Below the pieces are notes generated by a model that had not been told where the DNA came from, searched no databases, and saw only the letters and a list, made by a program, of their open reading frames with translations. Positions 147 through 3,371 of a stretch of 39,478 nt of DNA are shown here, in pieces. Both the position numbers and the translations under genes were made by a program. The stretch is taken from positions 1-39,478 of IMG/VR virus record IMGVR_UViG_3300019764_000011; one strand, given 5' to 3'. The number at the start of each line of letters is the position of its first letter. The first letter of the stretch is position 1. The stretch comes from a virus.

Positions 147-1376
147 TTAGCGCAACAACTCCAACGCCATAGGTTTGCGCGACTCAAGATCAAACAACTG
201 ATCAGCCGTGTACTTGCCGTCAATATACATCTGAGCGCGCTCTTTGCTATCGAAGAATGAATCAAGAAATTCACGATTTCCTCGCCGCTTTTGCTCTGCA
301 ACAAATCCAGCCAGCGTCGTTTCGCTGGTTTCTCCTCGCAACCGTTCCATAAATTGTGTTATCTGTAAGTTTGTCAAGCCCTCTTTCTCTAGCGCGTCTT
401 GTATCTGCGCCGGAGATGCTTTCTTAGCACCAGCAAAATACTTAATCTTGCCGTCATCTTGCTTGATGCCTATATTGCCCGTGCCAAGTACTTCACCCCA
501 CGGCTTCATTACTAGCTGAATCATCGAGCGGCATCGTAAATGCCTTGGCACTGGCGGGAAGTCATCGTAGTTCGGAAGAACAGTGTCTTTATATTTTAGC
601 GCTATCGACTTACATATAGCAGAGATGCGATTGTCAAATACTGCTACATTGCGATAGCCACGGATCAGGTCTTCATTAGCCTGAGCGGTTAGTCTAGCCG
701 CCTGATTTCCTGCGCTATTAACCGCCGTTCTAGTTATCGAGTCGATGCTGGATCGACTAATTGATTCAGCCGCTTTTTTGTTTTTCTTGTTGAATATAGA
801 TCTAATGATTTGCTGGTTAGATGCTGTTTTGCCGTTGAACAGTGACCGCAACGAGTCTTTCATCCGCTGACGTTCCGATGCCGGAATCCCTTTGAGCAAG
901 TTATTCAGCGTGCCACTTAACCTATCGCCAAGCGACAACTCGCTATTCATTGTTGCAGCGTACACCGATGCACCGGATACACCAGCGAACAAAAGGACGA
1001 TAGGCAACCCATCAAACGTTTCCTCTGCTGCTTTGTTGTAAATATTCTCTTGCGCGTACTTCGCTTCGTATTCGCTGAACTCAATCATTGATTCGTCGAT
1101 ATACTGGAACGTCTCGTCGTAGAACGGTAATCTATACTCATATATCAGATCAACGACTTCATCGACGACTCGACGAAACTTACGCTTAGTGGGCGTGTTG
1201 TCATTATCGTAAGCTTCGCGCAGCTTTTCGATATTAGCGACTAAGATGTTCCGCGACTCTGGATAAGCCTTAGCAATCCGTTCAAGCGCTTGATTAGCAA
1301 CGTGCGCACCGTACCTGTTGCGATAGTGAGCATGACTCACTGATAGCATGAAGATCTCTTGTGATAGTGTTGTCAT
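147..1376 (-). CDS. Phage head morphogenesis protein (Mu gpF / SPP1 gp7-like minor head protein)
   Basis: 409 residues. The C-terminal half carries the family signature: a 'VFDNRISAICKSI' segment (around residues 248-260) followed by 'PPVPRHLRCRSMI' (around 275-287), matching the conserved Asp-x-Arg-x-x-x-x-Cys and P-P-x-H-x-x-C-R pattern of the phage head morphogenesis domain. Proteins of this family are minor components of the procapsid, associate with the portal and are ejected or help DNA delivery. The start ATG overlaps the stop of the DUF3307 gene (ATGA), so the two are translationally coupled. It is placed unusually: SPP1- and Mu-like phages put it next to the portal, whereas here it ends the replication block and the portal is at the far end of the window. 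The domain assignment is firm; the precise role is inferred. Confidence 0.88.
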   Translation of the reverse strand: MTTLSQEIFMLSVSHAHYRNRYGAHVANQALERIAKAYPESRNILVANIEKLREAYDNDNTPTKRKFRRVVDEVVDLIYEYRLPFYDETFQYIDESMIEFSEYEAKYAQENIYNKAAEETFDGLPIVLLFAGVSGASVYAATMNSELSLGDRLSGTLNNLLKGIPASERQRMKDSLRSLFNGKTASNQQIIRSIFNKKNKKAAESISRSSIDSITRTAVNSAGNQAARLTAQANEDLIRGYRNVAVFDNRISAICKSIALKYKDTVLPNYDDFPPVPRHLRCRSMIQLVMKPWGEVLGTGNIGIKQDDGKIKYFAGAKKASPAQIQDALEKEGLTNLQITQFMERLRGETSETTLAGFVAEQKRRGNREFLDSFFDSKERAQMYIDGKYTADQLFDLESRKPMALELLR

Positions 1377-1747
1377 GCGCTCACCCCCACAACAGCAAAG
1401 ATTATTAAATAGTGCGTTAAGTGATGAACCATCTGATCAAAACCAAGAGCCCACCAGAATTTCGGATTGTCTTGCTTGTACCTTCCTAATAGTTTTGGAG
1501 ACGCTTTAATACGATCCATTGCAAAATGAATAACAAAATCAAATAAAGCTGCTAAAATAGCAACATAAAACCCAAAATAAAAACAAATAAAAAAAGTAAT
1601 TAAAGAGTGAACCGCACAGTGCGCCGATAATGGCGCAACCCATCCAGACTCTTTAAATTTTCCTAGCATATATTTATTTTGCAGAGGGTAATCTGCAATT
1701 AAGTGCTTGATTTGAAATGCAAAAAGCATAAGTATAAGTGTTGTCAT
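1373..1747 (-). CDS. DUF3307-family integral membrane protein
   Basis: 124 residues. The sequence has an N-terminal hydrophobic helix, the motif IKHLIADYPLQ, two central hydrophobic segments (around 45-75) and a C-terminal helix preceded by KFWWALGFDQMVHHLTHY. The F/L-KH-x-x-AD-x-PLQ and D-Q-x-x-H-x-x-T-H-Y patterns are those I associate with DUF3307, a family of small His-rich membrane proteins found in phages and bacteria, with no established function. The conserved His and Asp residues facing the membrane could bind metal. It overlaps the next gene by 4 nt (ATGA) and has its own extended -10 promoter just after the terminator that closes the protease gene. Confidence 0.7.
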   Translation of the reverse strand: MTTLILMLFAFQIKHLIADYPLQNKYMLGKFKESGWVAPLSAHCAVHSLITFFICFYFGFYVAILAALFDFVIHFAMDRIKASPKLLGRYKQDNPKFWWALGFDQMVHHLTHYLIIFAVVGVSA

Positions 1748-1783: not shown

Positions 1784-1803
1784 AAAAAACCGCCCGTAGG
1801 CGG
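1783..1803 (-). terminator. Intrinsic terminator after the HslV-like gene
   Basis: Minus-strand perfect 5-bp stem CCGCC/GGCGG closed by a TACG (UNCG-type) tetraloop and followed by seven T residues; it lies 12 nt after the HslV-like stop codon. Confidence 0.9.
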
Positions 1804-1814
1804 ATGTCTCGTTA

Positions 1815-2246
1815 TCATCCTATCGTGTAAGTCTTAATCGTTCCACCCGTGTACGGATCACGCTTAGCAGCAATACACACAGCATCATACGCGCTAAGAC
1901 CTGAATCCATTGCGCCGATTGCAAACAGCGAACCGCTACCGATGGCGTATATTTCCCCGTTTACCACCTGATCTGAGATTACAGTCCCATCATCATCAAA
2001 AGCAGCAATTAATACCTCATTTTCTGGCGTTATAACAAACGCTGCCGTAGCGTCAATTTTCGTTGTCTTGTGTCCATTGAAAAACAATTCAATCAGCGTA
2101 TCGAACTGAGTAGTAGAACCTGAGAAAAAGAATTTATACCCCTCTGCCTCGATCTTTTTATCGAACTCAACGTTTACTATCGTATCTCCTCTCGTTGCCT
2201 GACTATCATACGCTATCTGATTGTTTTTGTATGCTATTGTTGTCAT
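1815..2246 (-). CDS. HslV/proteasome-beta-like N-terminal threonine hydrolase
   Basis: 143 residues from the chosen ATG at 2246. That ATG has an AGGTGG ribosome site 5 nt upstream, whereas an in-frame GTG three codons earlier would bury the nucleophile. After Met removal the protein starts T-T-I, as HslV does. It then shows DSQATRGDT (HslV: DGQATLGNT, containing the catalytic Asp), Lys at mature position 29-30 matching HslV Lys33, and a C-terminal YAIGSGSLFAIGAMDSGLSA block matching the HslV AIGSGG...A segment. The fold is therefore Ntn-hydrolase, and the catalytic Thr/Asp/Lys set is visible. No HslU-type ATPase is encoded in the window. The protein could work with host HslU, act alone on unfolded or small substrates, or process phage proteins. 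It follows the sliding clamp and is separated from it by a hairpin. Confidence 0.82.
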   Translation of the reverse strand: MTTIAYKNNQIAYDSQATRGDTIVNVEFDKKIEAEGYKFFFSGSTTQFDTLIELFFNGHKTTKIDATAAFVITPENEVLIAAFDDDGTVISDQVVNGEIYAIGSGSLFAIGAMDSGLSAYDAVCIAAKRDPYTGGTIKTYTIG

Positions 2247-2257
2247 TCGCACCACCT

Positions 2258-2277
2258 AAAAGCGCCCCGTAGGGCGC
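2258..2277 (-). terminator. Hairpin between sliding clamp and HslV-like gene
   Basis: Minus-strand 6-bp stem GCGCCC/GGGCGC with a TACG loop, followed by only four T residues that run straight into the AGGTGG ribosome site of the protease gene. It could be an attenuating terminator or a 5'-end stabiliser. It lies 9 nt after the clamp stop. Confidence 0.6.
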
Positions 2278-2285
2278 GTTGATTG

Positions 2286-3371
2286 TTATAGACGCATTGG
2301 CATTAGAACCGCAGTAAACTTGCCCTCGTCAATACGAGCAGAGTTTGAACCATCTGATAATTGAATAATAGTTGAGTCAGATTCAATAGCGCTGATAGCG
2401 TCTTGAACATAAACACCATTAAACCCTATATCCATATTGTCGCCGTCGATGTTGCAAGGAATTTCTTCAAACGCCTCTTCTTGTTGCTGGTTCGATGCGG
2501 TAATACGAAGCGAGTCGGTATCGAATGATAGCTTAATCCCTTTGTATGTCTGGTTAGCCAATGGCATAGCGCGCTTCACTGCGTTAACTAGATCAACCGT
2601 TGACATCTCTGCACTAACTGAACAATTCGACGGGATGACTCGTTTGTAGTCCGGGTACTTGCCATCAATGAGCTTGGTTTTCAACATCATAGAGGATGTT
2701 TCAACTTTCAAATAGTTGCTGGTCACTTCAATAGTGCCATCAAAGCCCTTACTAATCATTTTAGCAATATCAGATACGGCTGTTCGCGGAACGATTGACT
2801 GTTTCTCAAAATGAGTATCAGCGTCAACAGTGTACATTGACATTCTGTGCCCATCTGTAGCAACGATAGTTAACCCAGACTCTGATACATCAAACAGCAT
2901 ACCGTTTAGGAAGTAGCGAACATCTTGCTGGGCCATAGATGGTGAAACCTTACTAATGCCTCGCGCCAATTCAGCAATATCAACGTTAATTGATTGTGGA
3001 TTATCGCCCATGCTATTTGATTCGGGAAAATCTTTGGCAGGTAGCGTTGACAATTTCCAACGGCTGCGGCCTGACTTGATAGTGGCTTCTGCACCTTTCA
3101 GTTCCAACGAAATATCTTTTGATGAGTCTGCGTTTTTAGCAAAATCTAGCAACTTGCGCGCAGGTACTGTGACACTTCCAGACTCGCCAACTGTTGATTC
3201 AATAGTTACTGATTTCTCAATCTCTAGGTTTGTTCCTGTGATTGTGAGCTTTCCGCCATCTGCAACAATCAAAACATTCTGCAAGATTGGCATTGTAGAC
3301 TTCGACTCAACAGCGCTTGTGACAAACGCCATAGCTGATGATAGATCTGATTGCGATACTGTAAATTTCAT
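2286..3371 (-). CDS. dnaN: DNA polymerase III beta subunit (sliding clamp)
   Basis: 361 residues, close to the usual 366. The N-terminus MKFTVSQSDL, the domain-one block STMPILQNVLI, VPARKLLDF, the ATDGHRM motif in domain two and the C-terminal TAVLMPMRL are all diagnostic of bacterial beta clamps, and the last strongly resembles gammaproteobacterial DnaN. The protein should form a dimeric ring tethering polymerase to DNA, with the usual peptide-binding cleft. It lies downstream of two small unknown genes whose stop/start codons overlap (ATGA), forming one translational unit. No polymerase or clamp loader is in the window, so it either serves a polymerase encoded elsewhere or redirects host Pol III. 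The ring must then be loaded by the host loader. Confidence 0.95.
   Translation of the reverse strand: MKFTVSQSDLSSAMAFVTSAVESKSTMPILQNVLIVADGGKLTITGTNLEIEKSVTIESTVGESGSVTVPARKLLDFAKNADSSKDISLELKGAEATIKSGRSRWKLSTLPAKDFPESNSMGDNPQSINVDIAELARGISKVSPSMAQQDVRYFLNGMLFDVSESGLTIVATDGHRMSMYTVDADTHFEKQSIVPRTAVSDIAKMISKGFDGTIEVTSNYLKVETSSMMLKTKLIDGKYPDYKRVIPSNCSVSAEMSTVDLVNAVKRAMPLANQTYKGIKLSFDTDSLRITASNQQQEEAFEEIPCNIDGDNMDIGFNGVYVQDAISAIESDSTIIQLSDGSNSARIDEGKFTAVLMPMRL

Follow-up and report, generated by a model that had tools for sequence, protein, structure and literature searches.

Fuchs et al. (2021; PMC8665760) described the PPH family of proteasome-like hydrolases, proteins of ~140 residues without helix H2 that are encoded by Caudovirales and by their hosts, with WP_042125023.1 as the representative sequence. 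A form of the family with a C-terminal extension is known as RPC (PMC8665760). The survey identified neither a genomic context nor an AAA+ partner for PPH (PMC8665760), and no later functional study of the family was found in the literature, as covered by open-licence papers. Another relative, the betaproteobacterial proteasome homolog BPH, belongs to Group I and, like PPH, has no propeptide and no known ATPase partner. Unlike PPH, BPH retains H2 together with a long acidic pore loop, and it forms 14-mers. BPH, which exposes Thr1 and forms rings, showed no activity toward casein or standard peptides (PMC5777263).

The DNA analyzed here, referred to as the window, is the complete stretch of 39,478 nucleotides of IMG/VR virus record IMGVR_UViG_3300019764_000011. 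One of its minus-strand genes encodes a new sequence of the PPH family. The order of the genes on this strand is thymidylate synthase, DUF5675, PhoH, a 149-aa protein, a 55-aa ORF, DnaN, PPH, DUF3307, and head morphogenesis. The features at and around the PPH gene are the following:

1815..2246, minus strand: ORF of the PPH-type proteasome-like Ntn hydrolase, 143 aa plus stop, Met followed by the catalytic Thr1
2252..2257, minus strand: Shine-Dalgarno-like AGGTGG, read from the sequence, 5 nt ahead of ATG 2246
2262..2277, minus strand: terminator-like hairpin GCGCCC-TACG-GGGCGC followed by TTTT, between dnaN and the PPH gene (consensus scan)
1790..1803, minus strand: terminator-like hairpin CCGCC-TACG-GGCGG followed by TTTTTTT, immediately downstream from the PPH gene (consensus scan)
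2286..3371, minus strand: DnaN sliding clamp, upstream neighbor of PPH
1373..1747, minus strand: DUF3307 membrane protein, downstream neighbor of PPH
147..1376, minus strand: head morphogenesis protein (phrog_241), downstream of PPH

Translation of the minus-strand ORF at 1815-2246 gives a protein with the N-terminus MTTIAYKNNQIAYDSQATRGDTI. An alternative in-frame GTG at position 2255, upstream from ATG 2246, would lengthen the protein by three residues. All 161 distinct homologues share the start (M or V)-T-T-(I or V), V corresponding to a GTG start in three of them. Since the AGGTGG site precedes ATG 2246 by 5 nt and all homologues share the same start, ATG 2246, the start originally predicted, is correct, and GTG 2255 is disfavored. 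The T run of the putative hairpin at 2262-2277 abuts the AGGTGG site. This hairpin, which ends at the PPH ribosome-binding site, might also influence translation. The two terminator-like hairpins flanking the PPH gene carry an identical TACG loop.

Equivalents of the catalytic residues are present in the window protein at T2 (Thr1), D14 (Asp17), K30 (Lys33), G43 (Gly47), G103-S104-G105 (Ser129), and D130 (Asp166). Among the 161 distinct homologues, T2, K30, and D130 were found in 161, G43 in 160, and D14 and S104 in 159, the counts for Thr1, Asp17, and Asp166 being inflated because most IMG/VR homologues were picked by patterns spanning T2/D14 or D130. The same catalytic residues were present in a 20-sequence alignment obtained by a plain tblastn search. 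The exceptions were Asp17 replaced by Glu in two Vibrio phages (L011:5001-5438 and L019:3001-3435), Ser129 replaced by Asn in two IMG/VR contigs (L189 and L171), and Gly47 replaced by Cys in a single homologue. Thus, the alignment of Thr, Asp, Lys, and the GSG segment claimed in the original prediction involves near-invariant residues, and none of these homologues has lost Thr1 or Lys33. Conservation of these residues is insufficient as proof of activity because BPH, whose Thr1 is exposed and whose rings form, was inert on the standard substrates.

Family models placed the protein in the proteasome superfamily, closer to proteasome β subunits than to HslV. The Pfam model Proteasome (PF00227) matched the window protein at an E value of 0.043 with 13.9 bits, below the gathering cut-off of 22.4, and matched 46 of the 56 homologues at E 0.1 or better (best E, 1.5e-5). 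PHROG 1040, annotated 'peptidase HslV family', spans the whole protein (E 3e-35) and also matches other phage members. In profile searches, the archaeal proteasome β model matched 55 of the 56 PPHs (best E, 9e-9), versus 13 of the 56 for an NCBIfam HslV model (best E, 6e-4). The score of the window protein against TIGR03692 (HslV), 13.6 bits, was below the curated cut-off of 157.75.

An AlphaFold2 model was computed from an alignment of 56 rows comprising the window protein and IMG/VR or GTDB loci (pLDDT 93, pTM 0.87). The order of strands and helices is that of the proteasome core minus H2, in a proteasome-type Ntn sandwich. A single helix (residues 45-57) is located between strands 37-42 and 67-72, where H2 is missing, and the last element of secondary structure is strand 137-141, with no C-terminal H5. 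A Foldseek search of the PDB returned proteasome β5/β5i as the top match (E 2e-10, TM 0.72), with BPH (5ovs) at E 1e-8 and HslV in HslUV (1g3i) at E 2e-8. Viral structures also gave fold matches to the model. The 20S proteasome β subunit is the best PDB match of the window protein in both sequence and fold, and the two share the GSG and RD-x-x-(S/T)GG motifs. In contrast to the 20S β subunit, the window protein has no propeptide, no H2, and no H5, and it is ~60 residues shorter. Together, the active-site residues and the predicted fold support the claim that the gene product is a proteasome-superfamily Ntn hydrolase in which Thr is the nucleophile and the active site is intact. The label HslV is loose since profile scores and fold both rank proteasome β above HslV; the protein is a PPH rather than HslV proper.

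Membership in PPH was judged on the published features of the family and on the match to PHROG 1040. The window protein has the published length (143 aa for ~140 residues), no insertions, no H5, no H2, and Thr1, Asp17, Lys33, and Gly47. The window also encodes portal, scaffold, major head, and tail proteins, as expected for a tailed phage. The MTTI start without a propeptide and the lack of an AAA+ partner are also common to the window protein and PPH (PMC8665760). No defining feature differs, and the window contributes a new sequence and the setting DnaN-PPH-DUF3307. Such a protease had been considered uncommon in a phage. The family is in fact well known: tblastn gave hits of below 60% identity in 66 INPHARED phage records (Pseudomonas, Vibrio, Shewanella, and Klebsiella), and a pattern scan of IMG/VR returned 276 coding stretches of the PPH type. 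Besides an identical copy in another IMG/VR contig (L002), the closest of the homologues fetched had ~49% identity. Megablast of the first 20 kb of the window against phage records gave no match.

The extended RPC-like form has the same catalytic core as PPH and is carried by large phages of Vibrio and Klebsiella (L013-L015, L017, and L020). It differs by its length of 266-304 aa, which includes the C-terminal extension, and by its location in several cases one or two genes after PhoH. In four of these phages (L013, L014, L015, and L017), genes for DUF5675 or lysozyme/peptidase-like proteins precede PhoH. In the window, DUF5675-PhoH is likewise found upstream from PPH, with two small genes and dnaN in between.

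A search of the window for the AAA_2 domain (ClpX/HslU type) was negative, in agreement with the original prediction that no unfoldase is encoded there. The same domain was found in none of 42 PPH-bearing records and in 14 of 14 control genomes. For this domain, as for the protease families considered below, an absence holds only as far as the family models are sensitive and the records complete. The scan of the window ORFs recognized no terminase gene, and positions 1-39478 showed no end repeat. The contig appears to represent only part of a phage genome, and an unfoldase may be encoded elsewhere in that genome. PhoH was considered as the missing ATPase, being encoded ahead of the RPC form in several large phages and upstream from dnaN in the window, but in most loci no PhoH was found close to PPH, and this candidate was rejected.

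The host could supply the unfoldase if PPH acted as an alternative HslV in partnership with host HslU, as had been proposed. The window protein and E. coli HslV (L224) belong to the same superfamily and have in common the Ntn fold, the Met-Thr start (MTTI), Asp, Lys, and GSG, with 33% identity over the aligned residues. HslV, of 176 aa, differs by the presence of H2 with its basic cluster and by its HslU partner, with which it functions as a dodecamer. The HslV segment facing the gap in PPH includes ELAKDWRTDRMLRKLEAL, the H2/pore segment containing Arg86, Arg89, and Lys90, which sit in a region that changes upon HslU binding (PMC5777263). Pairing with HslU is unlikely because this segment is deleted in PPH. 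In addition, BPH, which has retained H2, was still not found with HslU (PMC5777263), and no AAA+ partner of PPH emerged from the published survey (PMC8665760). We therefore regard a partnership with host HslU as highly improbable.

The original prediction also drew attention to the location of the gene between those for a sliding clamp and a DUF3307 membrane protein. The first half of this arrangement was recovered in a divergent relative (L190), which retains the order DnaN-PPH-x-head morphogenesis, where x is a 'DNA transfer protein' (phrog_1745) replacing DUF3307. The second half is not conserved, as DUF3307 adjoining PPH was not found in the other loci compared. DUF3307 was accordingly rejected as a functional partner of PPH.

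In a wider set of 80 loci from 14 flank lineages, most PPH genes were on the same strand as terminase, portal, or head genes and at a distance of at most 5 kb. Counted by lineage, the gene lay within or next to the head/packaging module in 7 of the 11 non-RPC flank lineages and in the window; in small Vibrio phages, it is directly between head genes. Such locations would be expected if PPH were a protease for head maturation or scaffold processing replacing a missing S78/S14/S49 prohead protease. None of the 42 PPH-bearing records yielded a match to Peptidase_S78, CLP_protease, or Peptidase_S49, as this role would also predict. However, proximity to head genes beyond chance is weak by lineage and suggestive only (binomial P of 0.03-0.19 for an assumed chance of 0.36-0.5). 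For a control set, 49 long records of 35-92 kb were selected from IMG/VR by means of a related NinG gene; PPH was present in 8 and absent from 41. S78 was present in a single record of the 49, which was PPH-free, and CLP and S49 in none. Thus, 40 of the 41 PPH-free relatives also lack S78, CLP, and S49, which argues against substitution for a head protease by PPH. The Phage_Mu_F head protein was detected in 39 of the 49 records, a further argument against this role.

Comparison with query genes from PPH-bearing phages showed that the PPH-free relatives encode TerL, portal, and head proteins that are up to 99%, 97%, and 98% identical, respectively. In these relatives, the slot before a HicA/transposase-like gene and terminase is occupied by holin-like, membrane, or unknown genes. 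Because some PPH-free phages share near-identical terminase, portal, and head genes and fill the slot otherwise, PPH is optional and dispensable for that head type, the evidence coming from Pseudomonas-type lambdoid relatives and not from close kin of the window phage. A required role in the maturation of phage head proteins, one of the functions originally proposed, is consequently disfavored, and we consider it improbable that PPH is a head-maturation protease. The slot before terminase is variable among the Pseudomonas-type lambdoid phages (L305, L307, L308, L310, L312, and L314), its content being PPH or holin-like, membrane, or unknown genes. Its neighbor gene, phrog_513, is annotated 'transposase' and is called HicA toxin in another record.

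Optional presence and location in an accessory-gene slot would also fit a conditional, host-directed role, in which PPH breaks down or cleaves one particular host protein, for example a defense or regulatory factor, for host takeover or counter-defense. High specificity is attainable by a Thr-Ntn relative, as exemplified by connectase (PMC8665760). Against such a target, neither PPH nor its DUF3307 neighbor matched any defense-related model, in a library made up of defense genes, not counter-defense genes. On balance, cleavage of a specific host protein appears unlikely. A more elaborate proposal, according to which PPH is a small self-compartmentalizing protease that operates free of any ATPase in a new quaternary form devoid of H2 and hits a specific host protein late in infection, as a proteasome-derived means of takeover or counter-defense, is rather more doubtful.

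Our preferred interpretation, which we hold to be probable, is that this PPH-family Ntn hydrolase is the product of an optional accessory (moron-like) gene located near the junction of replication and head genes and acts as an ATP-independent compartmental peptidase late in infection. Host methionine aminopeptidase would remove Met1, thereby freeing Thr1, and the subunits would associate as a closed ring or a double ring. Lys33 and Asp17 would activate Thr1, and Gly47 would provide the oxyanion hole. Having neither an unfoldase nor the HslU-responsive H2/pore segment, the particle would need no ATP to hydrolyze its substrates, peptides or unstructured polypeptides, and would act late in infection. 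The gain for the phage would be conditional (clearance of damaged proteins, recycling of peptides, or removal of host factors) rather than an essential step of assembly.

These results resolve the apparent oddity of a proteasome-like protease gene in this phage: the gene belongs to a phage family that had already been published. They also narrow the question of the role of PPH, which is optional among close relatives and for which head maturation and partnership with HslU are both disfavored. Phages that are alike in their terminase and head genes and unlike in PPH are natural pairs for probing this role.
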